Notes: generated from the letters alone by a model not told the origin. Counted from the first letter of the stretch, positions 40,121 to 59,015 are shown. The stretch: 64,000 bases of DNA from Mucilaginibacter gossypiicola (GCF_900110105.1 NZ_FOCL01000007.1:62001-126000); one strand, 5' to 3'. Program-made: numbers and translations.

Positions 40121-40155
40121 AAAGGTTTTGTTGGTTGGTTTAATAATTTTGGTGC

Positions 40156-42912
40156 TTAACGTCCGAAATCGAACCAAAGCGTGCCGCTTACCGGTTCACC
40201 ACTGGCATGATTGGTTTGGCTTTGTGGCCCCATTACTTTAGCCGCCTGAAACTTGGTACCAATTGGGCTTATTGCATTTAAAAACCCGATACTGCCTTCA
40301 GGAAAAGCTGGTTCAACGTTATTGTTTTCGAGGGCGGCCTGTTCCCTTGCCGGGTGCAGCATTTGCAGGTAGATATTTTTATCGGTCGTATAAACTGTAA
40401 AAGGTGATTCTTTATTTTCGATCACAGCCCAGTTAAGCTCGGCATGATATCCTTTAAATTCGGGGTAACCCCAGGTTTGGCCGGTAATGGTATTGTTATA
40501 AGCCTTGTGCCAAACACCAAATTGCTGACCTTTAAGCCTGTTTTTCCAAACACGGTAAGGGCCACGGCCCAGCCACTTCATCCCGGTGATTTTTTCCTCA
40601 GGATAGTTAAATGTGATGCCCATAAAATCGGCATCGCCTTTTTGGGTATATTGATATTCCAGTTTTGCAGGCTGGCCCGGGGTGAAAGTCCATTTTACAT
40701 GGAGGGTAGCGTCGCCATCATAATCGGCTTCAACAATATGCCCGCCTTTAATGGCCTTATTGGTAAACAGCTTTAATGATGTATTTACACCCGCCAAAAT
40801 AGGACCGCCCGATAAGGAAATAGTGCCCGATGGCTTAATTACTTTTTGAATATAGCCGGTAGTTTTATCGAAATAATAAGTGATACCATCACACACAACC
40901 TGGAGTTGCTGATCAGTTTCATTGATTTTTATTGGTGATTTAACAGGGGAAGAGACAATTTTGTTAATAACAGCAGGTGCTTTTAATGCCCAGCTCCAGG
41001 TAAAGATCTCTTTTTTATCAGCTCCATAGGCAGTAAGATACAGCGCATCACTTTTGGCCCACGATGCTGGCAGATTAAAATTGAGCACACCTTTTTCGCC
41101 GGGTTTAAGATCAAACTTTGCCATTGAACCGGCAGCGCTTACAATTGCAGCAGTTGTTTTGGCACTGGCCGGTGGAAATTTAACCAGCTGCCATTTAAAG
41201 GTACATTGGTTAAGATTAGTGAAGCTATACCTGTTTTCAACCGGTATTTTTCCGTTAAAAGTTTTATCAACAGGTTGCGGATCAATATACACCGGCGCCC
41301 AAATCTCTTTAATGGCATAAAAACTGCCTTCTTTTTCGCGGTGCGGGCCTACAATACCATCGGGGGCGTGGTTGCCATCAGCATCATAGGTGTTGTTTTT
41401 ATCGGTACGGATAACTGCTTCATCCAAAAACGCCCATATAAAGCCGCCTGCTCCATGGGGATGTTTCACCATTTGTGCCCAGAAATCATCGAGCGCGGCA
41501 CCTGCACCGCCGTCATACAAACCGTGCATAAACTCGGTAGGGAAAAATACTTCCTGCCCCTTTGCGGCAGCATTAACCATATAATTATAGTCAGGATAAT
41601 GCTTGGTATCGGTACCGTTAAACTTTTCCCAGGGATGGATCACCGTACGCTTTTGCGGATCATACAGGCCATAATCATTATCCAACGCCCTATTAAAGCC
41701 GCCTTCATTACCATTATCCCAAAACAGGATAGCCGGGTGGTTTACATCGCGTAGCACCAGTTCTTTAACCAGTTTATGGCCGGTTTCTGTATCATAATTG
41801 GCTTGCCAGCCGGTGAGCTCATCAAGCACATAAATACCCAGGGAATCGCAAACGTCTAAAAAATCGGCATCGGGAGGGTAGTGCGACATGCGTACCGCGT
41901 TCATGTTCATCTGCTTCATCAGCTTAACATCCATCAATTGAATCTCATGACTCAGCGTACGACCGGTTTCGGGCCAAAAACTATGGCGATCGCTGCCTTT
42001 CATCACGATTTTTGCGCCGTTTACATACAATCCATCATTAACCCTCAGCTCAACCGTGCGGAAACCAAATTTTTGCTTAATGCTATGTATAACGCCCTGC
42101 TTATTTTTGATCGCTACGATAACCTGGTACAGATTAGGGAACTCGGCGCTCCACAATAAGGGCTTATTAAAATTCGATTTTAGTTCGAGAGGCTCGGCAG
42201 TAGTATTCGTTTTTATGCTGAATGGCTGGCCTACTTTTTCACCGTTTAGCTTTTGTACTTGTGCCTCAATGGTTTCATCGCCTTTTAAATTCTGCGGGTA
42301 TACGTCGGCCTGAAAGGAGCCGTCGGCTTTGGCATTTATGGCGAGCCTTTCAATAAAAGTTTCGGGTACAATTTCCAGATACACCGGGCGGTAAATCCCC
42401 CCGAAAACCCAAAAATCGCTGTTGCGGCGTTCAGCATCGTTTACCGATTCATTTGCCGATGTTTTAGCAACAGTAACTTCGAGGAGGTTTTGGGCGTTTG
42501 GTTTTATTAAGCCGGTTATATCATATTTGAAACGATAAAAGCTGCCCTGGTGTACCGGGCCAGCCTGTTTGCCGTTCACCGTTACTTTGGTATCAGTCAT
42601 GGAGCCTTCAAAAACGATGAACACCTTTTTGTTTTGCCAGTTGCCGGCGGTAAATTCATGCTTGTATAAACCCTGCTCGTTAGCCTTAACTTTATCATGT
42701 CCGTAATTGTAGGTGCCGAAGCCTTGTAATTCCCAGTTAGATGGAACCGGGATATTTGTCCACTGACCGCTCTTACGCCCATCGGTACAAAAGAAATCCC
42801 ATTGTACAGTATGGTCTTTATCTGTACCCGAAAGGTATTTAATGATGGTTTGTTGTCCTGATGCTTTGAAGCAAAAAACGATGAACAATAGTTGCAGAAG
42901 TGCTTTTTTCAT
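40156..42912 (-). CDS. GH2 beta-galactosidase-type glycoside hydrolase (918 aa)
   Basis: 918 residues with a signal peptide ending ASGQ. LacZ domain order: jelly-roll sugar-binding domain (WTNIPVPSNWELQGFGTYNYG), immunoglobulin-like domain, TIM barrel with acid/base Glu403 in NGNEGG and nucleophile Glu460 in PTEFMHG, then beta domains ending in a Bgal small-chain-like region (MKWLGRGPYRVWKNRLKG). The loop wording NGNEGG and TEFMHG differs from the LacZ-like paralogue at 43341 and suggests another specificity within GH2. Periplasmic. It forms a probable two-gene unit with the sugar dehydrogenase. Confidence 0.92.
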   Translation of the reverse strand: MKKALLQLLFIVFCFKASGQQTIIKYLSGTDKDHTVQWDFFCTDGRKSGQWTNIPVPSNWELQGFGTYNYGHDKVKANEQGLYKHEFTAGNWQNKKVFIVFEGSMTDTKVTVNGKQAGPVHQGSFYRFKYDITGLIKPNAQNLLEVTVAKTSANESVNDAERRNSDFWVFGGIYRPVYLEIVPETFIERLAINAKADGSFQADVYPQNLKGDETIEAQVQKLNGEKVGQPFSIKTNTTAEPLELKSNFNKPLLWSAEFPNLYQVIVAIKNKQGVIHSIKQKFGFRTVELRVNDGLYVNGAKIVMKGSDRHSFWPETGRTLSHEIQLMDVKLMKQMNMNAVRMSHYPPDADFLDVCDSLGIYVLDELTGWQANYDTETGHKLVKELVLRDVNHPAILFWDNGNEGGFNRALDNDYGLYDPQKRTVIHPWEKFNGTDTKHYPDYNYMVNAAAKGQEVFFPTEFMHGLYDGGAGAALDDFWAQMVKHPHGAGGFIWAFLDEAVIRTDKNNTYDADGNHAPDGIVGPHREKEGSFYAIKEIWAPVYIDPQPVDKTFNGKIPVENRYSFTNLNQCTFKWQLVKFPPASAKTTAAIVSAAGSMAKFDLKPGEKGVLNFNLPASWAKSDALYLTAYGADKKEIFTWSWALKAPAVINKIVSSPVKSPIKINETDQQLQVVCDGITYYFDKTTGYIQKVIKPSGTISLSGGPILAGVNTSLKLFTNKAIKGGHIVEADYDGDATLHVKWTFTPGQPAKLEYQYTQKGDADFMGITFNYPEEKITGMKWLGRGPYRVWKNRLKGQQFGVWHKAYNNTITGQTWGYPEFKGYHAELNWAVIENKESPFTVYTTDKNIYLQMLHPAREQAALENNNVEPAFPEGSIGFLNAISPIGTKFQAAKVMGPQSQTNHASGEPVSGTLWFDFGR

Positions 42913-43134
42913 TACTGGTTATTTGTGCCCGTTGCGAAGGCTGGTGGTAAAATGTTAATTGGTTGTACTACAGGAGTATTTAAGTTTGTTAACAAGATTA
43001 CTCAACCTTAAACTGCAAAAAAAGAATATGCCCAATTAAAACTATGCAATCGTTTCCGGAAGGATGATTAGCATTAAAAGCTCATAAACCGTGTTCATTG
43101 CATCATACTTCATATGACGTAATTAAAACGTGGG

Positions 43135-43207
43135 TGTCATGCTGAGCCTGTCGAAGCATGGTGGGTAGGGCCTCTGCGCGCGACCCTTCGACAAGCTCAG
43201 GGTGACA
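43135..43207. repeat. palindromic repeat, family 2
   Basis: The left arm TGTCATGCTGAGCCTGTCG and the right arm, reverse complement TGTCACCCTGAGCTTGTCG, are each 22 bp with three differences and enclose 29 bp. This tract, with CTTCGACAAGCTCAG in it, resembles a repeat commonly scattered between genes in this group of bacteria. It is distinct from family 1. Confidence 0.82.
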
Positions 43208-43297
43208 AGCCGCCCGCCAAATGTTATATTCCCTTCACAGGCTGTGGTTTTTGCTTACTCACTATGGTGTTTTTTTAATAAAATCCTAATCGGGTAA

Positions 43298-43330
43298 AGA
43301 CTTACGAAGTTTTTAAAACTTCGTAAGTCT
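43298..43330 (-). terminator. inverted repeat after the large GH2 gene
   Basis: Arms AGACTTACGAAG / CTTCGTAAGTCT, perfect over 12 bp, with TTTTTAAAA at the centre, 10 bp downstream of the GH2 stop on the minus strand. It is a probable terminator. Confidence 0.7.
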
Positions 43331-43340
43331 GGATAGTAAA

Positions 43341-46300
43341 TTACTTCTTGCCCAACAACTGAATCTGGTAACTAAACGATGTAGGTTTTGCGTAAACCCT
43401 GTATTGCTCTAATGGTTTAGGGCCGCAACCGTTTGATCCGACACCTAAAGTTTCGTGGCTGATGCACAATACGGTGCCTTTGCTTTTAGGCAAATCTATT
43501 TTGTATTCAACATCGGTCATTTCTTCGTCGCTATAAGGTAACGCTGTTACCTGGAATAGTTCATCGGCTTTTTTTACCGCAATGCCCGAACCTTTGGCTG
43601 TAAATATCTTAGCCCAGCGTACATCCTCGTGATTGCCGCAGTCCATCGGCTTTTCGTACGGTGTCATTTGTTGAGCTATTGTGCTGGTGTAATGGCCAAT
43701 ATCAAAGCCGCTTTTCCTGTCGGCATAATTCTCCATCGGCCCGCGACCAAAATATTCAAACTGATTAACGTCCTGTTTCAGGAACAGGCGCACGCCTAAA
43801 CGGCCAAGCACTATTTTATCACTACCATTAAAGCTCACACTGTTATCAACTTTAATATTTCCATTTCCATCAATGGTGTAAACGGCCTGGTGATGAACAG
43901 CAAAATCATGTTTGCCTGTACCGGTTAGGCTTGCTTTTATCTCTACATTGCCGTTGGTAAGTTGGGTGGCTTTTACATCATCGGTTTTCCATGCCAATTC
44001 TTTTATGCCATATTTAACCCAATAATCATCATAAGCCCACATGTCATCCTTGCGGTGAGGCGCGCGCCATAAGTGCAGCATCGGGCCGCCATTATCCTGC
44101 AAAACATTTTCGCCGTCTTTTTCCATTTTGCTGAAAGTACCTCTGGTTATATCAAATTCCAGTGCAAAACCAGCCCCTTTTACTTTGATCTTATTATCCT
44201 CGTTTGATAAGCTTAATTTACCTGTTGCAACCGGTTCTTTGGCCGCAGGTATGGCTATAGGGAGCTCCAACTGCTGGGCAGCCACCTCATATCCTTTTTT
44301 GGCCCACATGTTATCAGCAGCCTGATCAAATGAAACCCTCAGGAAATATTCTGCCCCTGGTTTAGGAGTAACTGTGTACGGGATTTTTACATCCTGTTCT
44401 TCGCCTGGTTTAATTTCTTTTAATGGCAGGTTACCTGAAGATATGATTGAGCCGTTTTCGCTCACCGTCCATTTGGCAGTAAAGCTATTAAGGGTGATGA
44501 ATTGGTAGCGGTTTTTAATGGTAACAATGCCGTTTTTCAGATCTTTAGCATGTATGCTGATCCACTGGTAGGCATGTTTCAACTCAGGGTAGTGTGGTTT
44601 CAATGAACGATCAGAGAACACAACGCCTTTATGGATAAAGTACTGATCGTTAGGGTACTCGCCAAAACCACCGCCGAAAGCAGTTATAGGGTGTTTAGGA
44701 TCACGGTTGTTATAGATTCCCTGATCCTGCCACTCCCAGATAGCGCCGCCTAATAATTGCGGATATTTATCAAACAGATCGTTGTAAATATCTACCGAGC
44801 CCATGGAGTTGAACATGGCGTGCGCGTATTCGCACAGATAAAATGGCTTGGTTAAAGTGTTGTCGTTTGCATGTTTTTCAAGGTTTTCAACATCGGTATA
44901 CATTTCGCTGTCCATATCGGCAGGATTATTTTTACCGATACCGAAACCCTGGTAGTGTGTAGGGCGGGTAGTATCAATATCTTTAATTACTTTCAGGATA
45001 GCCCTGAAGTTTGATCCGCCGCTGCCGCATTCGTTACCTAAACTCCAGATAATAACCGATGGATGATTCTTGAAATTCTCCACGTTGGCAACATTCCTGT
45101 CAATCAGGGCAGCTTTGATCCTTGGTTCTTCATTAAACTCATCCCAGGCACCATGGTTCTCTAAGTTAGCTTCCGCTACAAGGTAAATGCCATACTGGTC
45201 GCACAGTTCATACCAGCGCGGATCATCAGAATAGTGGCAGGTACGCACGTGGTTACAGTTGGCTTGTTTGATGAGTACAATATCCCTGATCATTTGCTCT
45301 TCGGTAACCGCGTGACCATCATTAGGCCAGTTTTCGTGACGGTTTACACCTTTTAGCTTAATTGGTACGCCATTAACCAGGAACAAGCGGCCTTTAATTT
45401 CAGTGCTTCTGAAACCTGTGCGGGATGACAGGGTTTCAACGGTGTTAGCGCCATCATTGATTTTAACTACAGTTGTGTAAAGCTTAGGCGTTTCTGCCGT
45501 CCATTTTTGTGGGTTGTTTACGTGGAAGCTGGTTTCAACAACAACCTCTTCGCCCGGCTTCAGGGCAGGGATAGCCTTTTTTACAGTTGCTCCCGGAACC
45601 GGTACACTGCCATTGTATAAAGCTACATCCAGTACACGGGCTTTAACAGCAGCAGTACCGTAGTTTTTTACCTTGGTTGATACTACTACATCTGCATTTT
45701 TATACTGTTTATCCAGATTGGTTTTAACGAAGTAATCCCTGATATGCTCCTGGGGGCTGCTCCATAAGGTTACGTTTCTGAAAATGCCGCTTAAGCGCCA
45801 CATATCCTGATCTTCCAGGTAACTGCCGGTAGTAAAGCGGTAAACTTCTACAGCCAAAGTGTTTTTACCTGGTTTGATGTATTTGGTAAGGTCAAATTCG
45901 GTAGCATTACGGCTGTTTACGCTGTAACCTACTTTTTTGCCGTTCACCCATATAAAGAAACCGGCATCAACACCATCAAAAGTGATAAAAATGCGGCGTC
46001 CGCTCCATTCGGCAGGCACCATGAAATCACGGCGATAGCTGCCCACGGGGTTTCGCTCTTTATACGCGGTATATTTTTCGGGCGGGGTGCTCATTACCCT
46101 CGGAAAATCTTTCTGAAAGATATAGGTAAAATTGCTGTAATAGGGAGTGCCATAACCTTCAACCTGCCAGTTGGATGGCACTTTAATATCCTTCCATTTA
46201 GATACATCATAATCGGGTTTGTAAAAATTAACCGGACGTTTCTGCGGCCAGTCTACCCAGTTAAATTTCCAAAGCCCGTTCAGGCTGCGGCTAAATGATG

Positions 46301-46544
46301 ACGCATGACGATTGCCGGTTAAGGCCTCCTTTAACGATGCATAAGGCATTAGCGTGGCATGGCTGGCTTCTTTATTGATGCCGATGTTTTCAGGATCTTC
46401 AATTTCTTTGGGAACAGAAGCTGTATCCGTTGCGGATAGCCTGCTTCCGGCAGGAGCCTGGAAACCGAAGCTTACCTGGCAACAGGAAACAAGGCTTAGC
46501 GTTAATAGAACAATAGTTTTTTTAGAGAAAAGGGTTTTACTCAT
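43341..46544 (-). CDS. GH2 beta-galactosidase, LacZ-like (1067 aa)
   Basis: 1067 residues, close to the LacZ standard length. The export leader ends QVSFGFQ; a lipoprotein reading of LVSCC is also possible. All five LacZ domains are visible: sugar-binding (VPSNWQVEGYGTPYYSNF), Ig-like, TIM barrel with HENWPNDGHAVTEEQM, acid/base Glu505 in WSLGNECGSGG, nucleophile Glu572 in YLCEYAHAM, a linker, and a Bgal small-chain domain (FEYFGRGPMENYADRKSG). It hydrolyses beta-galactosides in the periplasm. A 21-bp-period direct repeat 82-119 bp upstream matches one beside the hybrid two-component regulator gene, suggesting shared control. Confidence 0.94.
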   Translation of the reverse strand: MSKTLFSKKTIVLLTLSLVSCCQVSFGFQAPAGSRLSATDTASVPKEIEDPENIGINKEASHATLMPYASLKEALTGNRHASSFSRSLNGLWKFNWVDWPQKRPVNFYKPDYDVSKWKDIKVPSNWQVEGYGTPYYSNFTYIFQKDFPRVMSTPPEKYTAYKERNPVGSYRRDFMVPAEWSGRRIFITFDGVDAGFFIWVNGKKVGYSVNSRNATEFDLTKYIKPGKNTLAVEVYRFTTGSYLEDQDMWRLSGIFRNVTLWSSPQEHIRDYFVKTNLDKQYKNADVVVSTKVKNYGTAAVKARVLDVALYNGSVPVPGATVKKAIPALKPGEEVVVETSFHVNNPQKWTAETPKLYTTVVKINDGANTVETLSSRTGFRSTEIKGRLFLVNGVPIKLKGVNRHENWPNDGHAVTEEQMIRDIVLIKQANCNHVRTCHYSDDPRWYELCDQYGIYLVAEANLENHGAWDEFNEEPRIKAALIDRNVANVENFKNHPSVIIWSLGNECGSGGSNFRAILKVIKDIDTTRPTHYQGFGIGKNNPADMDSEMYTDVENLEKHANDNTLTKPFYLCEYAHAMFNSMGSVDIYNDLFDKYPQLLGGAIWEWQDQGIYNNRDPKHPITAFGGGFGEYPNDQYFIHKGVVFSDRSLKPHYPELKHAYQWISIHAKDLKNGIVTIKNRYQFITLNSFTAKWTVSENGSIISSGNLPLKEIKPGEEQDVKIPYTVTPKPGAEYFLRVSFDQAADNMWAKKGYEVAAQQLELPIAIPAAKEPVATGKLSLSNEDNKIKVKGAGFALEFDITRGTFSKMEKDGENVLQDNGGPMLHLWRAPHRKDDMWAYDDYWVKYGIKELAWKTDDVKATQLTNGNVEIKASLTGTGKHDFAVHHQAVYTIDGNGNIKVDNSVSFNGSDKIVLGRLGVRLFLKQDVNQFEYFGRGPMENYADRKSGFDIGHYTSTIAQQMTPYEKPMDCGNHEDVRWAKIFTAKGSGIAVKKADELFQVTALPYSDEEMTDVEYKIDLPKSKGTVLCISHETLGVGSNGCGPKPLEQYRVYAKPTSFSYQIQLLGKK

Positions 46545-46610
46545 AGATATTTATAATTTGAAATTTTGGGGCGATTGATAATTGTACGTTTCAGATACAA
46601 ATAAATGTAA

Positions 46611-46628
46611 AATTTACAGCTGTAAATT
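46611..46628. promoter_or_regulatory. perfect 18-bp palindrome upstream of LacZ-like GH2
   Basis: AATTTACAGCTGTAAATT is its own reverse complement. It directly abuts the direct-repeat operator and lies 67-84 bp before the start codon. It may be a second regulator site. Confidence 0.45.
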
Positions 46629-46663
46629 GTCATACTGTACATTTTTATTTGCATAATGTACCT
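46626..46663 (-). promoter_or_regulatory. direct-repeat operator candidate upstream of LacZ-like GH2
   Basis: Two units with 21-bp period on the plus strand: ATTGTCATACTGTACATTTT at 46626 and ATTTGCATAATGTAC at 46647. The first unit differs from that at 52183 in only two positions. A 21-bp period places both units on the same face of the helix, as AraC-type response regulators require. Confidence 0.6.
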
Positions 46664-46796
46664 CAAGCACGCTAAAACAACCGATAATGCATTTTTGATT
46701 TATTGGGCGTTGTTTCTAAATAATAGACGTCCGTACAATAAGCATTACATTTTTATTATCTGAAAAGTTCTTTTAGCAGTTGTTTAGCATATCCGG

Positions 46797-46829
46797 AAAA
46801 AAACACGGCCCCGGGTTAACGGGGCCGTG
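46797..46829 (-). terminator. terminator of the SusC/SusD unit at 46857-51787
   Basis: A perfect 10-bp GC-rich stem CACGGCCCCG / CGGGGCCGTG with a 6-nt loop. On the minus strand it is followed by seven T residues, 28 bp after the susD stop. Confidence 0.92.
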
Positions 46830-46856
46830 AACCAATTAATAAACCGGATTATGAAA

Positions 46857-48566
46857 TTAATTATATCCCGGGTTTTGTGTGAGCTTAGGACTTTGGTTTA
46901 TAACACTGAGAGGTATCGGTAACCAGTTCATATGCTCGGAAAAGGAGTTTTTAAATATTGGTACGGGCGTATAAATTAGTTTACCCCCGGCACCTGTGGT
47001 GATCTTCATGCCGTATTCTTGCTCCAATAAAACGGCAGGCCCTTTTGCGGTAATATCCCACCGCCTGATATCGAACCAGCGCTTGTCTTCAAAAACAAAC
47101 TCTATTCGCCGCTCGCGCCTGATAGCCTCGCGCATCTGATCTTTGGTTAAACCCGCAACAAGTGCCGGTAATGCCGAGCCTGCACGTTGCCTAACCTGGT
47201 TCACCGCCGCGTATACAGAAGCATCGGGCCCGGCAGCTTCATTTTGTGCTTCGGCATAACTCAGCAACACCTCGGCATACCTGAAGAATATGTAGTTTGA
47301 AGTACCCTGGGTAGTATTTAAACTCGTTTGGCCCCGAATGGATTCATCAAGCGTTTTTTTACCGTTATAACCGGTGTTTGAAATATCACTTGATGAACTT
47401 AGGTCGATCTCATTGTTGCCGCCGATCCGGGATTTGAAAATATCGCCCTGCCAGGTTGAGCCATCATATACAATAGATTGGTAAAACCTTGGTTCGCGGT
47501 GTACGTAAGGGTTTTGCGGATCATAGCCCGATGAAGGATCGGTTATAGGTTTGCCGTTGTCCATTTCGTATTCATCAATCAGGTTTTGCGTAGGTGCCAG
47601 GTTACCCCATGCTTGCTGCCCGCCATTAACAATAACCGGCCCCAGGATACCCTCGCGTTTGTGGCCCCTGTTTGGTGCTGCATAACCCCTTGCAAAGATG
47701 GTTTCTTTATTCCAGTTGTTGGCTGAGAGAAACTGGCCCGCATAGTCGGGAAATAAGTTATATTGCCCAAGGGTAATAACCTGTTGGTTGGTGGCAGCAG
47801 CTTTTGCCCATTTGGCGGCATCACCGGCTGGATTACTAAGCGGACTTGCCGCAAAAAGCTCTACCCATCCCTTTAAAGTTAAAGCAGCGCCTTTTGTGGC
47901 CCGGCCATTCTCTGAAGTAACCGGTAAGGCTGCAGCCGCGGCATCACAATCTGCTTCAATAAAAGCAAGTGTTTGCTCCGCTGTGCTTCGCGCAGTGAAC
48001 AGATCGTCTCCAGTTCTGTTATCCAGCGGCACAGTAATAATCGGGACACCTCCGTAATTGGTATACAGTAAGGAATAAAAAAATGCCCTGAGATAAGTTA
48101 CTTCGCCTACGCGTTTGGTGTACCATGCATCTGAATATTTTGCCTTGTTTTTGGCTGCTAACTGAAGAAAAATATTGCATTTTCTTATTTTATCATAATT
48201 GCCTAAGCTACTCTGATCGCTTGGGTTTGTTGATCTCCAACGCCATGCTCCGGCGGGGCCATCGATTGAATTGCTGGGGTTCAAAGCATTTGCCCTGATC
48301 ACCGATTGACCGGTTTCCCACGAAGCACCACACGCGCTATTATCAGTGTATTGATCTGATGCCTGTGTTTCATTATTCAGATCGGGTAACTGGCTATATA
48401 TATCATTAACAAAAAGATCGGCATTGGCTTCTGATGCAAATGCTGTTTCATCTGTTAAAAATCCTTTTGGGGGTACATCTAACGCATTTTTTTTACAGGC
48501 GCTTACACTTACAATCAGCAAAGCGAGAAAAATGACGTGTCCCTTTTTTAAATATGTTGATTTCAT
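46857..48566 (-). CDS. SusD-family lipoprotein
   Basis: 569 residues; lipobox VSAC (Cys24). SusD landmarks: LTDETAFASEANADLFVNDIY, the RVGEVTYLRAFFYSLLYTNYGG helix, NYIFFRYAEVLLSYAEAQNE, VNQVRQRAGS and RRERRIEFVFEDKRWFDIRRWD. It is the lid of the SusC encoded 11 bp upstream. The ligand is not known; neighbouring GH2, GH43 and GH92 genes suggest a complex side-chained glycan. Confidence 0.95.
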   Translation of the reverse strand: MKSTYLKKGHVIFLALLIVSVSACKKNALDVPPKGFLTDETAFASEANADLFVNDIYSQLPDLNNETQASDQYTDNSACGASWETGQSVIRANALNPSNSIDGPAGAWRWRSTNPSDQSSLGNYDKIRKCNIFLQLAAKNKAKYSDAWYTKRVGEVTYLRAFFYSLLYTNYGGVPIITVPLDNRTGDDLFTARSTAEQTLAFIEADCDAAAAALPVTSENGRATKGAALTLKGWVELFAASPLSNPAGDAAKWAKAAATNQQVITLGQYNLFPDYAGQFLSANNWNKETIFARGYAAPNRGHKREGILGPVIVNGGQQAWGNLAPTQNLIDEYEMDNGKPITDPSSGYDPQNPYVHREPRFYQSIVYDGSTWQGDIFKSRIGGNNEIDLSSSSDISNTGYNGKKTLDESIRGQTSLNTTQGTSNYIFFRYAEVLLSYAEAQNEAAGPDASVYAAVNQVRQRAGSALPALVAGLTKDQMREAIRRERRIEFVFEDKRWFDIRRWDITAKGPAVLLEQEYGMKITTGAGGKLIYTPVPIFKNSFSEHMNWLPIPLSVINQSPKLTQNPGYN

Positions 48567-48577
48567 CTCGTTATATT

Positions 48578-51500
48578 TTAAAATGTTGCATTAACTCCTA
48601 TTGAAAGCACACGCTGTTGGAAATAATTTTCATTGTTTCCGCTGTTTTCAGGGTCAATAGTTTCTTTTACTGATGGTGTCCAGGTAAACACGTTTTGGCC
48701 GGCAGCATAAACCCTTAACGAACGCATGGCTTTACCAAGCAGCCTGCTTGAAAAAGTATAACCCAATTCAAAGCTTCTTAAGCGTAGATACGAGTTATTC
48801 CTGATCCACCAGCTTGATGATTGCGTGTTATTTGATTTAGGTGTGCCATAAAGACGCGGGTACAAGGCATCTGTATTTGAAGGGGTCCAATGGTCTTTAT
48901 AAGTAAGTTCGGTTGCCGAACCCGATGCCTGGAAAGGCCATACGAAGTAGTTGTTAAGCTGGATGTTACTGTTGCCCGATCCCTGGATTAACAGGTCTAC
49001 ATCAAAGTTTTTATAAGTAAGGCGCGGTTCCAAACCATAAATAATTTCCGGAGTATTCGGGTGACCGATCACGGTTTGGTCGTTGCCATTTATTTTGCCG
49101 TCGCCGTTCAAATCGGCATATCTTAAATCGCCGGGGCGTACATCACCAAACTGCGGAACAGGAATACCCGCTTTTAGCGTCTTTCCGTCAGCCTGAAAAT
49201 CGGCAGGTGTGAAGTAACCCAATGCCTGTAAGCCAAATTGAGTGCCATTAGGCCTGCCGGTACGGCGGGTGTTTGGGTTGGCGTAAGTTCCTGCATCTTC
49301 ATAAACCTTAACCAGTTTGTTGCGTGCAAATGTGAAGGTCCCTTTAATATCCAGGCGTAAATCTTTACTGAAGCTTTTTGAGCTCGTAATGGTTACATCA
49401 ATACCATGGTTTTGCATATTGGCGCCATTTACTAACCCTAAACCAACGCCGTATTCGGGTGGAAGTGATGCCGCAATCTGAGCCAACAGGTTTGAACGTT
49501 TTTCTGAAAAGTAATCAACCTCAAAACCCAATGCGCCATTCCATAAAGTAGCCTCTAAACCAACGTCGATCTTTGTCGCTTTTTCCCAGGTAATATCAGG
49601 GTTCCCCTGCAAGCCTTCGTAAACGCCCTGCGTAGTGGTATTGTTCAAAACAGCCGAACTTGACGAAATTTTGTAAGGACTTAGATATTGATAGGTAAGG
49701 ATATTACCGCCACTTGCCGGATAAGCACCGGATTGGCCCCATGAACCCCTAAGCTTTAGGTTATCGATCCAATCAAAATTATTTTTGATGAATTTCTCTT
49801 CAGAAATACGCCATCCGGCAGAGAATGCCGGGAAGAAGCCCCAACGATGATCAGGCGCAAAAAGGTAACTGCCGTCATACCTGCCCGTTGCTTCGAACAG
49901 GTATTTTTTATCATAGGCATACCCTAAACGGTAAACATAGCCTATCTGCTTTTGCCCGTCGGAATGTCCCGAGTTGGTAGCATCAGAAGGGGCGGGGCCG
50001 CCAAAATCAAGCTCATCGATATCAAGGTTGTAATTGATCTTTTTGGCCGAAAAGGTTTTGTATTTCACCGTGCGGTTTTCAACTACCAATAAGCCGGTGA
50101 TATCGTTTTTACCAAATGAACCTGAGTAATTCAATAATCCCTGTGCAGTTATAGAATGCGTTTGGTTGTAAGTTTCTGAAAAAGTTGGGTACTGGCTACC
50201 TTGTATGCTTTGTACAAAAGTGTATGGTTTTTTATTTTTATCGGCTACGCTGTAAAAGGGGATAGGTGTGCGGTACGAACGTTGAAACGATGTTTGGGTA
50301 TTAAATAACGGCTCCGGCCCACTATCGTAGCTGATAACGCCTTTAATACTTAAACCTTTAACAGGCAGTTTTTGATCGATAGATAGCTGCGACAATAAAG
50401 CCGAGTTTTCGTTAATATCATAACCACTATGGTAAATTTCACCTACCAGTGACTGGCCAATGTAACCGCCCCATAAACCATTGGTGAAATAAACCGGAGT
50501 GTAAGGTGCCGTTCTTTCGGCCTGGTCTAAAATACTTCCTGCGCCGGTACCGGGGTAGTGCCCATCCTCCACATAGCTGTTTACCGAAAAGTTTACTGTA
50601 GTGCTTTTAGTTGCGTTGGCTGTTAGGTTTAACGATCCGTTGTATTTGTTGAGATAAGTGGTGCTCCACATACCATCCTGGTGGGTATATCCAACCGATG
50701 CAAAATACCTGATATCGTCACTACCGCCCGACAGTGTGATGTTATGAGCTGTAATCAGGCGGTTTTTTAGGATAATATCATGCAGCGGATCGCTGTCACC
50801 ATGTACATCCAGATCTGAATGATCCTTATATTTTTGCAGGTCATCATCGGTAGCAAAAGGAACATATTGGGTACCTGCATCAGCTGCGTCATTGGCGTTG
50901 GCCTCGTTACGCATCAGCGCGTACTGGTATGAATTAGTATATTGTGGTATAAAAGTTGGATTTTGAAAACCAACATAACCATTATAAGTTAAGCTGGCTT
51001 TTCCTGAACGGCCCTGTTTGGTGGTTACCAAAATTACACCGTTTGCACCCGCTACACCATAGGGCGCAACTGCAGCCGCGTCTTTTAATACCGTGAAGCT
51101 GGCTATTGTATTAGGGTCCAGGCGACTAAAATCCCGCGGAACTCCATCAACAATGAGCAGGGCCGCCGAACGGTTAAATGACCCCTGTCCCCTGATTTGA
51201 ATGTTGGATGCATCAAAGCCAGGCTCGCCGCTGCCTTGCGTTACAATCAGGCCCGAAGCACGCCCCACCAGGCTGTTTGTTAAATTAACAACCGGTTTTT
51301 GCGCTATTTCGGTAGTGTTAATGGTTGAAACGGCGGCGGTAGATGAGGTTTTTTTCTGAGCACCGTAACCAACAACTATCACCTCGTTGAGGTTTTTTGC
51401 TGCCGGCTGCAGCCTTACATGTAACACGGCCTGGCCGTCAACGGGCACATCAAGCGAGTCGTAACCAAGGTATGTAAACACCAGTACAGCGTTGTCTGCT

Positions 51501-51787
51501 GCCTGTATTGTGAAGTTACCGTTGATATCGGTAACAGTACCGCCTGTAGATCCTTTGATCTTTACGGAAACCCCGGGGATTGTTTGACCTGTTACCCGGT
51601 CAATAACCTGGCCTTTTACAGTGGATGCGTTTTCTTTATTGCCCTTAGCAGCGCCTGCAATTTTATAGGCCGAGCTTTTTACAGGAGCAGCGGAGCTGAA
51701 ACCTGAAACAAATAAGAGGACTATGCCGCCCAGGTAAAACCGGGACTTGCTAATGTTAAGATACTTTTTAAGTAAAGTCTTTTTCAT
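48578..51787 (-). CDS. SusC-family TonB-dependent transporter
   Basis: 1069 residues. There is no STN domain; the leader is followed by a carboxypeptidase-D regulatory-like domain (STVKGQVIDRVTGQTIPGVS, about 55-135), the plug (VIVVGYGAQKKTSSTAAVS, FTVLKDAAAVAPYGVAG) and the barrel. One plug motif, usually ILKDASATAIYG, reads VLKDAAAVAPYG here. The lack of STN agrees with control by the divergent hybrid two-component system instead of a sigma factor. It shares a 649-bp intergenic control region with that regulator. Confidence 0.95.
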   Translation of the reverse strand: MKKTLLKKYLNISKSRFYLGGIVLLFVSGFSSAAPVKSSAYKIAGAAKGNKENASTVKGQVIDRVTGQTIPGVSVKIKGSTGGTVTDINGNFTIQAADNAVLVFTYLGYDSLDVPVDGQAVLHVRLQPAAKNLNEVIVVGYGAQKKTSSTAAVSTINTTEIAQKPVVNLTNSLVGRASGLIVTQGSGEPGFDASNIQIRGQGSFNRSAALLIVDGVPRDFSRLDPNTIASFTVLKDAAAVAPYGVAGANGVILVTTKQGRSGKASLTYNGYVGFQNPTFIPQYTNSYQYALMRNEANANDAADAGTQYVPFATDDDLQKYKDHSDLDVHGDSDPLHDIILKNRLITAHNITLSGGSDDIRYFASVGYTHQDGMWSTTYLNKYNGSLNLTANATKSTTVNFSVNSYVEDGHYPGTGAGSILDQAERTAPYTPVYFTNGLWGGYIGQSLVGEIYHSGYDINENSALLSQLSIDQKLPVKGLSIKGVISYDSGPEPLFNTQTSFQRSYRTPIPFYSVADKNKKPYTFVQSIQGSQYPTFSETYNQTHSITAQGLLNYSGSFGKNDITGLLVVENRTVKYKTFSAKKINYNLDIDELDFGGPAPSDATNSGHSDGQKQIGYVYRLGYAYDKKYLFEATGRYDGSYLFAPDHRWGFFPAFSAGWRISEEKFIKNNFDWIDNLKLRGSWGQSGAYPASGGNILTYQYLSPYKISSSSAVLNNTTTQGVYEGLQGNPDITWEKATKIDVGLEATLWNGALGFEVDYFSEKRSNLLAQIAASLPPEYGVGLGLVNGANMQNHGIDVTITSSKSFSKDLRLDIKGTFTFARNKLVKVYEDAGTYANPNTRRTGRPNGTQFGLQALGYFTPADFQADGKTLKAGIPVPQFGDVRPGDLRYADLNGDGKINGNDQTVIGHPNTPEIIYGLEPRLTYKNFDVDLLIQGSGNSNIQLNNYFVWPFQASGSATELTYKDHWTPSNTDALYPRLYGTPKSNNTQSSSWWIRNNSYLRLRSFELGYTFSSRLLGKAMRSLRVYAAGQNVFTWTPSVKETIDPENSGNNENYFQQRVLSIGVNATF

Positions 51788-52436
51788 AATTAAACTTTTA
51801 GTTGCACATAATGAGAGGTTGATTTGAATTGGTTAAAAGTTGATGTCTGGTTTTTACTTTCATTGGTTTTTTGAGGGTTATTGGATGGTTTAATTGCTGG
51901 TTTAAATAGTGCACTATCAAATCCATGCGTTGCCCACAAACACGTGTTGTGGCTTGCATTGATTTGAATATTTGTTTGTTGCGTTAATTGGTGGCAACAA
52001 ATAACTTGTTTAATCAGGGGCGGGAGGTTACCAAATCATGCATATTTATTGGCAGAAAGTGCATTTATTAATAATCAGATAAAGTAGGGCCGACAGGGGG
52101 ACAGCTGTTTGAAATTGCAAAAAATGAAGATTGGGCGGGTTACGGCAAACGAAAAGTGTCGACAGATAGGTTAAAAAAGCCAATTGTCAAATTGTACATT
52201 TTTATTGTCAAATTGTGCATTTTGAATTGAGGATATTATATTATCCGGTATAGAAAATTCATTTTTGTTATAGCGTAGCGTATAATGTTTAAACCAATGC
52301 TTTAAGCGGGGATTTGTGCATGCTATGGTAAACCAATTTTAAAACTGATATATACTATTTAGAGTAACCGCTATTCACTTAAGCCGGATAAATATTCTTT
52401 GCAGTATTTTTAAATCCAAAACCGATAGCAATATAA
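51788..52436. other. 649-bp divergent control region between susC and the hybrid regulator
   Basis: No gene. It contains a 12-bp palindrome ATAGTGCACTAT (51906-51917), a near-palindrome centred on CACGTG (51934-51952), an inverted repeat TTTGTTGC / GCAACAAA (51975-52001) and the 21-bp-period direct repeat (52183-52224). The length and number of symmetric sites are unusual for a divergent pair. Confidence 0.6.
52183..52224. promoter_or_regulatory. direct-repeat operator candidate of the hybrid two-component system
   Basis: Two adjacent 21-bp units, ATTGTCAAATTGTACATTTT at 52183 and ATTGTCAAATTGTGCATTTT at 52204, that differ at two positions (one of them the last base). It lies 213 bp before the regulator start and 396 bp before the susC start. 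The same arrangement occurs at 46626. Confidence 0.65.
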
Positions 52437-55400
52437 ATGAGCATCAAAAACCTCTTTGGGTTAAATAAAGGCCTAAACGCAAAAGCGCTATATGTCTTTA
52501 TTTTTTTTAACTGTATAGTTACATCTATTGCCTGTGCCCAACCATATCCTTATAAATTCAATTATCTGACGGTGGATGAGGGCTTGTCACACACGGATGC
52601 CAATTATATTGTGCAGGATAAGCAGGGGTATATATGGGTGGCCACCTTTTTTGGCCTTGACCGGTACGACGGTTACTCGGTTAAGAAGTTTTATAACAGC
52701 AATGTTCCACTCAATAATGCCTTTAAAAACAGGCTGATTTCCCTTTATCCTGATGATCAGGACAATATTTGGCTAAGTACTGAGGGCGGCTTGCAGTGTT
52801 TTAATACCCGGCAGGAAAAATATACCGATTTTACTGAAACTACGGGTTCAAGAACAAGTTTTGAAAAGGTAATTAAACCATCCGGCGATTTTCTGTATGT
52901 GTTTACAGGAAGCCAGTTTAAGCTATTCAAGGTTAAGGGAAATAAGATTGAGCCGCAAAAATTAAACATGCCTGCCGGTATCCGCGTTACAGATATTACA
53001 GCTGATAAATCTGGAACCCTTTATTTATCAGGCAATATGGGCATCTGGCTGCTTGATAAAAAACAGGTGCTGCATAAGATTGATATTAAAGGACTTGCTA
53101 CGCAGGAGCTTTCACATGTGTTTATTGACAATGTTGGAAACCTGATGGTTTCGGCTAAAAATGAGTTATTGCTGATAAACGAGCAACGCGGTGTGTTTAC
53201 AGCAGGCAGCCGGTTTGTGTGTACCGGTTATTCAGATATAAAGGGAGTGGTTCGCAGCAGCCGCGGAGATTATTGGATAAATGTACCAAGTGCAGTTCTG
53301 CGGCTCGACAATCAGCTCAGGTTTATCCAGGTGGTAAATGATAAAAGCTCTCCTCATGGCTTAAACTCAAACTCGCTGAGTAAGATCTTTATTGATCGTA
53401 CAGATTGCCTGTGGATCTGCACTTTTGGAGGCGGTGTTAACTATTGTGATTTAAACGAAAAGCTTTTTTACACCCTTCAACATAATCCGGAAATAGCTAA
53501 CTCATTGGCCGGTAATCATATTCGATCCGTATTGGCCAGTGGCGACGATATCTGGATTGGTACCACTGCCAACGGATTGAACCGGTACAATTTAAAAACA
53601 CAGAGATTCACCTATTATAATACCTACAATTCTTCGGTAAGGATAAAAAATGATGCTGTAACTGCTTTAACGTTTGACAATGACCATAACCTATGGATTG
53701 GCAGCTCCAGCGGCATCGATATCCTGAAACCGGACGGGACCCTATGGAAACCGGCCGGATCGGAACTTTTCCCAACTCATGTTGTGGATTGCTTTGCCCG
53801 GGACTATTATGGTAATATTTGGTTCGGCAATCATCAGGATCATTTGGGGGTGATTTTGAAAGATGCACAAAACCGTTACCGGATAAAATATTACGGTGAA
53901 GGTTATTTTATTTTTGCCGATAAAAACCGGCCGCAATTGCTTGTTTCAAGTATCCATGGTTTAAAACGGATGATCATTGACAAGGAGGGGAATATCGTTA
54001 AAAGTTTCTCTTATAACGCGTCATCCTCAAATCCCAACTCGTTAAGTTCAGATTATACTTATCCTATAGATAAACAAAACGACAGTACCTACTGGGTAGG
54101 CACCATTGGCGGCGGTTTGAATAAGTTAGTACTACATGAAAAAAACGATTCATATGCCATCAGCACCTATGCAGGTAGTTATGGGATTTTTAACGATGTT
54201 GAAAGCCTTGAAATAGATCATGCCGGAAATATTTGGATGGGTGGTAACGGTTTGGAATGTTTTAATCCGGCCACCGGTAAACTGATCCGCTATGACAAAA
54301 ACGACGGACTTCAGGGCAACAGTTTTAAAGTGGGCGCATCCTATAAAGGAGACGACGGGCGATTATACTTTGGCGGGATAAAAGGGCTGAATTATTTTTA
54401 TCCCGATCAGATCAAAGCTAATAAAATAACCGCGCGGCCTGTTTTTACCGATATACTGATCAATAATCTGCGGCCGGTTTACACCAACCCCGATTCAACA
54501 AAAAATGCAATCCCGCAGGCTATTGGTTATTGTAATCAGTTAACGCTTAATTACCTGCAAAATAATTTCGTTATTGCATTTTCATCTATGCATTTTGCCA
54601 ATCCTTTAAAATGCAAATACCGCTACAAGCTTAACGGTTTTGATAAGGATTGGAAATATACCGATGGGAAAAATCCCACCGCAGCCTATAGCAACCTCGA
54701 TTATGCCAGTTATAAATTTGTGGTTGAGGCCACTAACAACGATGGTATCTGGAGTGAAAGTAAAGCAGCAATGACTATTACGGTAATTCCGCCATGGTGG
54801 AAATCGGGTTTTGCCAAATTGATTTACTTCATACTGTTTCTGTCGGGCTTAGCGGGTATTTATATTTACCAGGCCAGGTGGTACCGGCTTAAACGGGAAA
54901 TGGAGGTGCGTGCCATTAATGAAAACAAACGTGAAGAAATGCACCAGCAGCGCGAAGAACTTTATCAGCAGCAGTTGATGTTTTTTACCAATGTTTCGCA
55001 TGAGTTCCGTACACCTTTGACGTTAATACTCGGCCCGCTCGAAAGCCTCATTGGGCAAAATAAAAACCCTGCGCTTGATTATTCGTACCAATTGATGTAC
55101 CGGAACGCTAAGCGGTTAATGAACCTGATTAGTGAACTGATGAACTTTAAAAAAGTAGCAGACAGCATCATTAAGCTCCAGGTTCAGCCGCTGCAGATCA
55201 GTCAGTTTTGCAAAGACATAACCTGGGAATTTCAAAATCTTGCCGTTAGTAAAAGCATTATTTTTGAAATTAACGATTATACCGAAGCGCAGATGACAGC
55301 TTCAGATCAAGCCCCGTTCGATGTTCAGGTGCTCGAGAAGATCCTTTTTAACCTGTTAAATAATTCATTTAAATATACTAATGCCGGTGGTCAGGTATCT

Positions 55401-56603
55401 TTCGATGTCTTTTTTGATATAGAACAGTTTAAGCCATCTTTTAATACCGGGTTTGAACTTTTGAATAAGGATCACCGCGCAAAAAAATATGTCTATTTCA
55501 GGGTTGCCGATACCGGGATAGGCATTTCCGGCGATTCTATTACCCGAATTTTTGACCGGTATTACCGGATAAGCAAAAATCATTTGGGATCGGGTGTAGG
55601 TTTAGCGATGGTTAAAAGTCTCACTCAATTGCACAAAGGGGATATTTATGTTTATAGCGAGCGATATAAGGGAACGGAGATTATTATAGGCATACCATGG
55701 GGAGAAGAGAATTACGATGCTGCAGAAAAAGCAGCAGGCGCAGGCGTAGTAGCGCAACTGGAAGTTATTGATAATGCTATGCAGATTCAATTGCCGGACA
55801 TGGAACCTGCTGAAAATCATCTGCCGGAAAAAAATCGCAAACACCTGCTATTAGTTGAAGACAACCCCGAATTGCGCGCATTTTTAAAACACGCGTTTGA
55901 AAAATATTATTTGGTTCACGAAGCCGAAGATGGAAAACAAGGTTTTGAGATTGCTACCGAAAAAATGCCCGACCTGATTATCAGCGACGTAATGATGCCT
56001 GGTATGAATGGAATTGAACTTTGTAAATTGCTTAAAGAGCAGTTTGAAACCAGCCATATCCCTTTTGTGATATTATCGGCAAAAGATACCCTGGATACCA
56101 AAATTGAAGGAATGGAGTCGGGCGCTGATTTTTATTTTGCTAAGCCATTAAGTATAGATCTGTTGCTGCTAACAGTTAGCAATATATTTGAACAGGCCGA
56201 AAAACTGAAACAACGGTATTCCAAAAACTACCTGTCAGAAGCCACAGAACTTGTGCACACGGAAAAGGATAAAGAGTTTTTTCAAAAGCTGATCAACATC
56301 ATTGAAGATAATATACAGGATTTGAACCTTGATGTTGATTTTTTGTGCAGGCATTTGTTCATTAGCCGTACCAAGCTTTATCAAAAAATTAAGGGAATCT
56401 CCGATCAGTCGGTCGGTGAATTTATCCGTACCGTGAGGCTCAAGCGCGCTATCCACATTATGACCCACGAGGATGTGTCAATGAACGAGGTGGCCGATAG
56501 GATAGGTCTTCAAAGCAATTCGAACTTTTCAAGGGCATTTAAAAAAGAGTACGGTAAATCGCCGCTGCAATTCATGCAATCGTTGAGGAAAGCTCAGTCA
56601 TAA
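52437..56603 (+). CDS. hybrid two-component system regulator (HTCS)
   Basis: 1388 residues in the full HTCS order: signal peptide (ending CAQ), periplasmic two-propeller sensor made of Reg_prop repeats (about 40-700; e.g. DKQGYIWVATFFGLDRYDGY, NIWLSTEGGLQCF), Y_Y_Y domain (about 725-785), transmembrane helix (about 792-812), histidine kinase with His855 in FFTNVSHEFRTPLT and ATPase boxes NLLNNSFKYT, VADTGIGIS and GSGVGLAM, receiver domain with Asp1184 in ISDVMMPG, and C-terminal AraC-type HTH (about 1290-1385). It senses an oligosaccharide in the periplasm and activates transcription. It diverges from susC and is followed by GH92. Confidence 0.97.
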   Translation: MSIKNLFGLNKGLNAKALYVFIFFNCIVTSIACAQPYPYKFNYLTVDEGLSHTDANYIVQDKQGYIWVATFFGLDRYDGYSVKKFYNSNVPLNNAFKNRLISLYPDDQDNIWLSTEGGLQCFNTRQEKYTDFTETTGSRTSFEKVIKPSGDFLYVFTGSQFKLFKVKGNKIEPQKLNMPAGIRVTDITADKSGTLYLSGNMGIWLLDKKQVLHKIDIKGLATQELSHVFIDNVGNLMVSAKNELLLINEQRGVFTAGSRFVCTGYSDIKGVVRSSRGDYWINVPSAVLRLDNQLRFIQVVNDKSSPHGLNSNSLSKIFIDRTDCLWICTFGGGVNYCDLNEKLFYTLQHNPEIANSLAGNHIRSVLASGDDIWIGTTANGLNRYNLKTQRFTYYNTYNSSVRIKNDAVTALTFDNDHNLWIGSSSGIDILKPDGTLWKPAGSELFPTHVVDCFARDYYGNIWFGNHQDHLGVILKDAQNRYRIKYYGEGYFIFADKNRPQLLVSSIHGLKRMIIDKEGNIVKSFSYNASSSNPNSLSSDYTYPIDKQNDSTYWVGTIGGGLNKLVLHEKNDSYAISTYAGSYGIFNDVESLEIDHAGNIWMGGNGLECFNPATGKLIRYDKNDGLQGNSFKVGASYKGDDGRLYFGGIKGLNYFYPDQIKANKITARPVFTDILINNLRPVYTNPDSTKNAIPQAIGYCNQLTLNYLQNNFVIAFSSMHFANPLKCKYRYKLNGFDKDWKYTDGKNPTAAYSNLDYASYKFVVEATNNDGIWSESKAAMTITVIPPWWKSGFAKLIYFILFLSGLAGIYIYQARWYRLKREMEVRAINENKREEMHQQREELYQQQLMFFTNVSHEFRTPLTLILGPLESLIGQNKNPALDYSYQLMYRNAKRLMNLISELMNFKKVADSIIKLQVQPLQISQFCKDITWEFQNLAVSKSIIFEINDYTEAQMTASDQAPFDVQVLEKILFNLLNNSFKYTNAGGQVSFDVFFDIEQFKPSFNTGFELLNKDHRAKKYVYFRVADTGIGISGDSITRIFDRYYRISKNHLGSGVGLAMVKSLTQLHKGDIYVYSERYKGTEIIIGIPWGEENYDAAEKAAGAGVVAQLEVIDNAMQIQLPDMEPAENHLPEKNRKHLLLVEDNPELRAFLKHAFEKYYLVHEAEDGKQGFEIATEKMPDLIISDVMMPGMNGIELCKLLKEQFETSHIPFVILSAKDTLDTKIEGMESGADFYFAKPLSIDLLLLTVSNIFEQAEKLKQRYSKNYLSEATELVHTEKDKEFFQKLINIIEDNIQDLNLDVDFLCRHLFISRTKLYQKIKGISDQSVGEFIRTVRLKRAIHIMTHEDVSMNEVADRIGLQSNSNFSRAFKKEYGKSPLQFMQSLRKAQS

Positions 56604-56708
56604 CGGGTGTCAATTATTAAAAAGGAACATATTGTCAATAAAATTGTATGATTAGCATTGCGCTGAATCAATTTAGCAGGTAACTTGCAGTGCTAACAAA
56701 ACCTATCA

Positions 56709-58865
56709 ATGAATAAACCAATTAAAATCCTGATCAGCTTAACATTATTGATTTTTTTTACGGTGAACGCGGCAAATGCGCAAACCCAACCGTTGTACAC
56801 TAAGTATGTAAACACTTTCATAGGTACCGCGCCGCTCAATGATCCTAAGATTCTGGGTTATGAGCTACCTAAAGGATGGCGGTCGTGGGCAGGGCTTACC
56901 TTTCCGGGCAGTTCGTTGCCAAATGCTATGGTGCAATTAAGTCCCATTACAGCTTATGGTTCAGGGGCAGGCTACCAATACGAAGACACGGTAATTTATG
57001 GCTTTACCCATACCAATAAAGGTCACTGGAATCTGTGTAATATTCCTATTCTGCCGGTATCTAATCCGCAGGGAAACAAATTCGGTTCAAAATTTTCGCA
57101 TAAAAAAGAAAGCTCGGCACCTGGCTTTTATCAGGTATATCTTGACGATTACCAGGTAAATGTGAGCCTGACCTCGACCCTAAGAAGCGGCTACCATAAA
57201 TATGAATTTAAAAATAACACCAACCGGCAAATACTTTTTGACCTGGGCAAAGCCAATAGCAGGGTATCAACCTGGCGTATAGAACAGGTGGCCCCGAACG
57301 CCGTACAAGGTTTTCAGGGCGGCGAAAACGTTTATTTTTATGCTGAACTAAACACCCAAATAAACAAATTAGAAAAAACAGACGACGGGCTGCGCAGCGG
57401 ACATGCGATGTTGTATTTAGCCGACGGAGGTACAGCCCCTGTTGAACTTAAAATTGGGCTTTCGTTTGTAAGCGAGAAAAACGCTAAGGAGAACCTGGAG
57501 AAAGAGATCGGTAATAGAAGCTTCGATATGATCCGTAGCGAGGCATCGCAAACCTGGGAAAAATTATTATCAACCATACAGGTTAAAGGTGGTACGGAAA
57601 AACAAAAACGCATGTTTTATTCCTGTTTGTACCGTTCGTTTTTGTGGCCGGCTTTGCGCAGCGATGTGAACGGCGAATTTACCGATGCCAAAAGAAATGT
57701 TGTGAAAACGGGGGCAAGGTACTATACCGAACCATCGTTATGGGATACTTATCGCAATAAAGATGTGCTGCTGGGCTTAATTACGCCCGATGTAACGCTT
57801 GATGTTATTAAATCATTAAAAGATGTTGGTGATAAAACCGGCTTTATTCCTACGTTTTTCCACGGTGATCATGGGGCTTCGTCTATAGCAGGGGCCTACC
57901 TGAGGGGGATCGATAATTTTGATGTTGAAGGTACTTATAAATTGCTTTTAAGAAACGCCAACGTTGAAGGTGGCCCGCGTCCATATATCACCGAGTATAT
58001 TCAGAAAGGATATATCTCTGATCCCGATATCGCCAAACCCGAGGTAGAAACCAAAGCCAAAGCTGGTGTTTCAAAAACATTGGAATACTCGTATGATGAT
58101 TATTCGGTAGCGCAGATAGCCAAAAAATTAGGCGATACCGCCAATTACCGCATTTTAATGGCGCGTTCAAAAAACTATAAAAACATGTTTGATCCCTCTA
58201 CCCGCTTTATGAGGGGCAGACTGGAAAACGGTGAATGGATTAAGAATTTTGATCCTCAGCATCCATATTACGAATACATGTACCGCGAAGCTAATGCCTG
58301 GCAGGTATCCTTTTTTGCACCACATGATATGCCGGGGCTGATTAAGCTTTATGGCGGGCCGAAAGGCTTTGAATCAAAGCTCGATTCGTTATTTACGCTG
58401 CCCTGGAACCCTAATTATATTGCCCGTAATGTGGAAACAATGATAGGCCAATACTGCCAGGGTAACCAACCCGATCATGAAGCTCCGTTTGCCTATATTT
58501 TTATTAATAAACCGGCAAAATCACAAAAGATAATCGATTATATTTTAAATAACCTGTATGGTATTGGTAATGAGGGTCTGGAACTCAGTGGGATGGATGA
58601 TGCCGGCGAGATGTCGTCATGGTACGTTTTCAGCGCTTTGGGTTTGTATCCGTTTTCGGCAACCGATCCAAAATACATTGTTACAGCCCCGTTGTTTGAT
58701 GAAGTGAAATGGACAACCAGTAACGGCAAAACATTAACCATCAGTAAGCCCGGAAAAGGCAGGGGCGTTACCTCAGTTCGGGTAAACGGAAAAATAAATA
58801 ATGGCTATTTTGTATCTCACGATTTGTTTAAAACAGGTGGTAAAATAACTGTTGTTACTAATTAA
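56709..58865 (+). CDS. GH92-family glycosidase with Gln at the catalytic-acid position
   Basis: 718 residues with a signal peptide ending ANAQ. The family opening is YVNTFIGTA followed by PGSSLPNAMVQLSP; the middle has the SLWDTYRNKDVLLGL block. The C-terminal (alpha/alpha)6 barrel contains SGMDDAGEMSSWYVFSALGLYPF with the base-type aspartates 630/631. GH92 enzymes are Ca-dependent inverting exo-alpha-mannosidases. The usual GNEPxH motif, whose Glu is the general acid, reads GNQPDH here (Gln587). Such a change is known to me from a GH92 that cleaves mannosyl-phosphate diester links, where protonation of the leaving group is not needed. It starts 105 bp after the HTCS gene. Confidence 0.92.
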   Translation: MNKPIKILISLTLLIFFTVNAANAQTQPLYTKYVNTFIGTAPLNDPKILGYELPKGWRSWAGLTFPGSSLPNAMVQLSPITAYGSGAGYQYEDTVIYGFTHTNKGHWNLCNIPILPVSNPQGNKFGSKFSHKKESSAPGFYQVYLDDYQVNVSLTSTLRSGYHKYEFKNNTNRQILFDLGKANSRVSTWRIEQVAPNAVQGFQGGENVYFYAELNTQINKLEKTDDGLRSGHAMLYLADGGTAPVELKIGLSFVSEKNAKENLEKEIGNRSFDMIRSEASQTWEKLLSTIQVKGGTEKQKRMFYSCLYRSFLWPALRSDVNGEFTDAKRNVVKTGARYYTEPSLWDTYRNKDVLLGLITPDVTLDVIKSLKDVGDKTGFIPTFFHGDHGASSIAGAYLRGIDNFDVEGTYKLLLRNANVEGGPRPYITEYIQKGYISDPDIAKPEVETKAKAGVSKTLEYSYDDYSVAQIAKKLGDTANYRILMARSKNYKNMFDPSTRFMRGRLENGEWIKNFDPQHPYYEYMYREANAWQVSFFAPHDMPGLIKLYGGPKGFESKLDSLFTLPWNPNYIARNVETMIGQYCQGNQPDHEAPFAYIFINKPAKSQKIIDYILNNLYGIGNEGLELSGMDDAGEMSSWYVFSALGLYPFSATDPKYIVTAPLFDEVKWTTSNGKTLTISKPGKGRGVTSVRVNGKINNGYFVSHDLFKTGGKITVVTN

Positions 58866-58886
58866 TAATATCGTTTTAATTATGTA

Positions 58887-58926
58887 AAAGAGGCCGCATT
58901 ATTAAAAAATGCGGCCTCTTTATTTT
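58887..58926. terminator. bidirectional terminator between GH92 and GH43
   Basis: A perfect 13-bp stem AAAGAGGCCGCAT / ATGCGGCCTCTTT followed by further T residues, 21 bp after the GH92 stop and ahead of the convergent GH43 stop. Confidence 0.9.
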
Positions 58927-59015
58927 GCCATAAAAAAGAAAAGAAGGCGACGTTAATTAAGCTCCGGATTGCCAATCACCACCAATATGTCAGCACGTAA
59001 TTTGAATGTGATGTG

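Follow-up and report, generated by a model that had tools for sequence, protein, structure and literature searches.

Tandem 21-bp repeats predicted to be operators of a hybrid two-component system mark a polysaccharide utilization locus of Mucilaginibacter gossypiicola and enclose a susCD presence/absence junction

We analysed a 64,000-nucleotide stretch of Mucilaginibacter gossypiicola DNA (hereafter referred to as the window; all positions are counted from its first letter) and found that a tandem repeat with a 21-bp period is, as far as its sequence allows prediction, almost certainly the DNA element recognised by the sugar-sensing hybrid two-component system (HTCS) encoded beside it. We propose with high confidence that copies of the repeat are operators through which the HTCS would drive a GH2 gene, susCD, a distant acetylesterase gene and probably a GH92 gene, and that a crossover between two of the copies, sites A and B, would remove susCD.

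The HTCS gene (52437-56603, plus strand) encodes a single polypeptide of 1388 amino acids, in which Pfam identified a sensor region (Reg_prop propeller and Y_Y_Y) followed by HisKA, HATPase_c, Response_reg (receiver) and AraC-type HTH_18 domains, the DNA-binding part comprising residues ~1270-1388. Pfam also assigned susC (48578-51787, minus strand), susD (46857-48566, minus strand), the LacZ-like GH2 gene (43341-46544, minus strand), the SASA-family acetylesterase gene (25398-27392, plus strand) and the GH92 gene (56709-58865, plus strand). With a susC/susD pair, glycoside hydrolases and a regulator, the region is a polysaccharide utilization locus (PUL). The window additionally contains a separate starch-type Sus cluster at 13791-25130, featuring a DUF6377 protein, SusC/D/E-like proteins, GH31 and an alpha-amylase, and, at 28510-38483, a second susCD pair (33115-36486 and 31300-33114) accompanied by FecR (36631-37833), an F5/8-type domain protein and a GH76 with a ricin-type lectin. 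A GH76 with a lectin is also present in the HTCS PUL of the congener G115 (L225 10239-11849), a recurrence hinting at an alpha-mannan-like substrate.

An initial sequence-only reading had reported two copies of the repeat, and direct reading confirmed both. Site A (46626-46667; ATTGTCATACTGTACATTTTT ATTTGCATAATGTACCTCAAG) and site B (52183-52224; ATTGTCAAATTGTACATTTTT ATTGTCAAATTGTGCATTTTG) lie on the plus strand with the same 21-bp period, and their first units, as had been noted, differ at 2 of 21 positions; the second unit is weaker in site A, with 11 of 14 scored positions matched as compared with 14 of 14. The perfect units of site B, at 52183 and 52204, give the 21-bp period without its being assumed; sites A to E and those of related genomes were otherwise searched for with the period fixed. 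Site A reads towards the minus-strand GH2 gene and lies 82-119 bp ahead of its ATG (46544), in agreement with the earlier reading, and it is retained in the congeners G084, G067 and G075. The description of the GH2 promoter as "distant" was an overstatement, since GH2 shares the strand of susCD and is the gene that follows it, at a distance of 5.5 kb; it is the acetylesterase gene at 25398 that is remote.

The repeat is specific to this locus. With up to 3 mismatches allowed, the window contains 6 matches to the 21-base unit where 0.20 would be expected, a count of 6 being reached in none of 100 shuffles. Genome-wide counts, obtained by pattern searches, gave only three matches to the 24-base unit with up to 2 mismatches in 8.2 Mb, all of them units of sites A and B, and none to the reversed control. 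Scattering at random positions of the genome, which the sequence-only reading had named as the observation that would speak against it, was thus not what we found. We also used a PWM built from 20 sites of other genomes, the window being excluded; on Markov sequence totalling 8.3 Mb it gave a maximum score of 17.5. Sites A and B scored 41.7 and 50.3, respectively, the latter being the top-scoring tandem copy, and the matrix revealed three copies that had been missed. Site C (52027-52068, plus strand; 41.8) lies 240 bp from the susC ATG, 156 bp closer to susC than site B. Site E (25275-25316, minus strand; 27.5), 27 kb away, precedes the ATG of the esterase gene (25398) by 82 bp, a distance equal to that between site A and GH2. 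Site D (56619-56660, minus strand; 15.8), 49 bp ahead of the GH92 ATG, is weak and scores below the null maximum; the GH92 genes of G125 (24.9) and G074 (28.6) have stronger counterparts in the same place. The proposed regulon of susCD and GH2 is supported but was drawn too narrowly: the esterase gene and, probably, the GH92 gene at 56709 are predicted to belong to it as well.

We next consider conservation, for which HTCS ortholog loci were taken from congeners. All 16 congeners whose HTCS ortholog is at least 60% identical carry, ahead of the HTCS gene, a dimer with the 21-bp period and the shared consensus, the divergent neighbour being susC, GH2 or GH92. When two mismatches were allowed, the dimer pattern was present in 17 of 17 HTCS-bearing genomes, M. 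gossypiicola included, mostly in the PUL only and in up to 7 copies (G114); in G093 the pattern matched solely elsewhere, and the HTCS-adjacent site was found by the matrix (score 25.0). Just 2 of the 17 congeners without a close HTCS ortholog, defined here by no HTCS match at E <= 1e-250, carry one weak two-mismatch match each. Matches were weak (15-25) or lacking for orthologs below ~58% identity, and weaker matches adjoin more distant HTCS orthologs, including those of Puia (29.6) and Algoriphagus (21.9). In most of the genomes measured, 76-85 bp separate the operator from the GH2 ATG (G151, 98 bp; G093, 159 bp). The esterase orthologs of G114, within its PUL, and of G075, on a contig other than that of the HTCS, carry the same element in the same place.

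Several further observations were made in the course of these comparisons. The PULs of G114 (L159, L226) and G115 (L225) are larger, and several of their modules (GH92, susCD, GH76, GH2 and esterase) each have their own operator copy. When the DNA ahead of nine further HTCS genes in the M. gossypiicola genome was examined for 21-bp periodicity, one gave p ~0.014 and the others lay near chance, single sequences offering low power. Conserved dimer-like matches outside the HTCS PUL were seen at L223 3117-3158 (G157), L224 3276-3317 (G077) and G019:C27:9277-9313, with PWM scores of 30-33 where scored; at these, the usual position of the promoter box described below is empty. The G157 match sits between an NrtR/AraR-type regulator gene and GH97.

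The operators stand in a fixed relation to a promoter box. The sequence TT(A/C)TTTG is found downstream, with respect to the gene, at 29 of 40 non-redundant sites, at an offset of 21 bp (23 times) or 22 bp (6 times), with no occurrence at other offsets up to 80 bp; the opposite side gave 1 match, and the background was 0.0003 per position. The exact box is missing at 11 of the 40 sites. Sites A, C and E follow this rule, being succeeded by TTATTTG boxes of GH2 (46598-46604, minus strand; 21 bp past the site), susC (51998-52004, minus strand; 22 bp) and the esterase gene (25338-25344, plus strand; 21 bp), respectively. Units and promoter box thus follow one another at 21-bp steps, and the operators are directional. 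The box shares its TTTG core with the -7 box of the housekeeping (sigma-A) promoters of Bacteroidota, TAnnTTTG (PMC9723704), here at a fixed place past an operator, but differs in that the TA is mostly missing: the exact TAnnTTTG was not found downstream of the operator sites, where the box present is TT(A/C)TTTG. A missing TA is what an activator-dependent promoter would be expected to show.

Site B breaks the rule. No TT(A/C)TTTG follows it in the window genome (G000), G084, G067 or G024; the box does follow the site at the B position in G075, G114, G115 and G028. Because the box rule fits site C, and site B has no box towards susC, we assign the role of the conserved susC operator to C and reject B as a candidate for it; the view that the copy in the susC/HTCS gap at B serves susC was not borne out. 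Site B is then either an HTCS-facing site or a leftover. We put slightly below even the chance that it is used for autoregulation of the HTCS and persists for this reason without a promoter towards susC. Such a use would agree with its position, which in almost all strongly matching orthologs is at 135-221 bp from the HTCS start, and with the conservation of the stretch from B to the HTCS start in G000, G153, G084, G125 and G067; it is harder to reconcile with the orientation rule, which points B away from the HTCS gene, and with the several genomes in which the same site appears to drive the divergent gene.

The same repeats contain the boundary of a segment that is present or absent among close relatives. 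In the sister species G153, which has a single-contig genome and an HTCS 96% identical to that of the window, the HTCS gene adjoins GH2 and susCD is absent. The segment found in the window but not in G153 extends from 46650 to 52206 (5,557 bp), and its left and right ends are marked by TGTACATTTTTATT at 46636-46649 inside site A and by the identical TGTACATTTTTATT at 52193-52206 inside site B, both on the plus strand. The junction is clean: the single site of G153 (L150 7512-7553) begins as A and ends as B, the switch falling within the 14 bases common to the two, and the informative positions of G153 agree with the A parent at 15 of 16 to the left and with the B parent at 27 of 29 to the right. 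The flanks are collinear, window positions 30008-46649 and 52179-58927 aligning at ~88-92% identity with more divergent patches in two GH2 genes. A search for the susC ortholog elsewhere in G153 yielded only a 68% paralog. A similar chimeric site is present in G125.

From the A/B chimera in G153 we conclude that the loss (or gain) of susCD took place through a crossover within the operator, one complete operator being left. As direct repeats that are nearly identical and share one orientation, A and B could recombine so as to remove susCD exactly and keep a complete operator ahead of GH2, as is the case in G153. Since each operon has a near-identical, co-oriented 42-bp operator, PULs could be shuffled with their regulation kept. 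Whether HTCS operators serve as recombination joints of PULs in this wider sense, with crossovers removing or inserting susCD or enzyme modules while an intact operator and promoter stay, seems to us evenly balanced.

As for the direction of the change, we consider it probable that susCD was lost. The HTCS tree places G067 (susCD present) first, followed by G125 (absent), G084 (present) and then G000 (the window genome; present) together with G153 (absent), an order for which two losses are the simplest account, and the divergence of susC is in line with that of its flanks. The converse, that the window lineage acquired susCD when it was inserted into a single HTCS/GH2 operator, leaving B as a promoterless insertion scar, is unlikely but has points in its favour: HTCS-site-GH2 arrangements without susCD exist in several clades, a promoter box towards susC is missing at B in G000, G084 and G067, and the trees of GH2 and susD conflict in part with that of the HTCS. 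Against it, G067 and G084 bracket G125 and G153 on the HTCS tree, such that two losses suffice; the divergence of susC from G084 is close to that of the HTCS; and the order C-susCD-(...)-A-GH2 is common to the distant G114 and G115. In patches of the GH2 and GH2b genes (40156-46544), the window resembles G125 or G084 more closely than it does the sister G153, suggesting exchange between species. As the trees of the GH2 gene and the HTCS disagree, the polarity of the susCD change is obscured by exchange between relatives, and exchange at GH2 and GH2b leaves room for a gain; the gene trees gave no clear polarity.

Returning to control by the HTCS, we envisage that the sensor would bind its sugar and the receiver domain would be phosphorylated, upon which two AraC-type DNA-binding domains, arranged head to tail on the same DNA face, would occupy the two units 21 bp apart. 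Of these, the one nearer the promoter would take the place of the -33 region, 21-22 bp ahead of the -7 type TT(A/C)TTTG box. From this placement at a fixed distance from the box, we infer that the HTCS recruits RNA polymerase, which would occur at GH2 (site A), susCD (site C), the distant acetylesterase gene (site E) and probably GH92 (site D). The remaining copy, site B, would be kept for HTCS autoregulation or be a leftover. The proposal of one HTCS regulon over susCD and GH2 is supported by the co-occurrence of the site with the HTCS ortholog, by its fixed orientation and spacing relative to promoters and by its match to the published HTCS rule.

PULs may hold several regulators, and another AraC-type or unrelated PUL regulator could in principle bind the repeats in place of this HTCS. 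We regard this as very improbable, as an operator copy always lies ~100-290 bp from the HTCS start whatever the other neighbour (GH2, susC or GH92), the element is absent or nearly so where the HTCS is absent, and its spacing equals that published for HTCSs. A dispersed or mobile repeat, or a chance similarity, might be suspected from the A+T-richness of the elements and their position flanking a present/absent segment, but can be dismissed, given the lack of further copies in 8.2 Mb, the outcome of the shuffles (0 of 100), the fixed promoter spacing and the composition of the absent segment, susC and susD alone without a recombinase or transposase.

The susCD junction inside the operator is the less expected and most interesting part of these results. 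It points to a simple way for PULs to shed or exchange modules while their regulation stays in place; a literature search for PUL-module deletion between direct repeats found nothing directly relevant, which does not prove absence. The sharp geometry of unit, unit and box, in turn, lets HTCS regulons, distant members included, be read from sequence.

The operators themselves fit an already known kind of control, the HTCS direct-repeat operator of Bacteroides, and extend its 21-bp rule to another genus. For Bacteroides, Ravcheev et al. (2013, PMC3878776) predicted HTCS motifs to be direct repeats with a mean spacing of 21 bp, the regulons consisting of a few distant operons besides the cognate PUL. 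The operators of HTCS_Man, HTCS_Rgu and HTCS_Hep (PMC3878776) resemble those described here in having two conserved sites in a ~21-bp direct repeat, in their placement ahead of the susCD and enzyme genes of the cognate PUL as well as of a few distant genes, and in the AraC-type HTH of their regulators; here, too, a ~21-bp direct repeat is upstream of susCD and enzyme genes, is conserved among orthologs and co-occurs with the HTCS. The published spacing and the conserved dimer together support the earlier suggestion of a tandem-dimer operator on a 21-bp period, as a prediction. In EMSA, the receiver-DBD of BT4124 and BT4663 of Bacteroides binds the susC promoters of their own susCD operons, and the isolated receiver-DBD inhibits itself (PMC11253607); these regulators likewise are HTCSs with a receiver and an AraC DBD, and binding, shown for them, is predicted here. 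Unlike the Bacteroides operators, those of Mucilaginibacter, a genus of the Sphingobacteriaceae, have their own consensus, the comparison being one of spacing and context, and it is in them that the distance of 21-22 bp to the -7 type box was measured and a susCD presence/absence junction was seen inside the operator.
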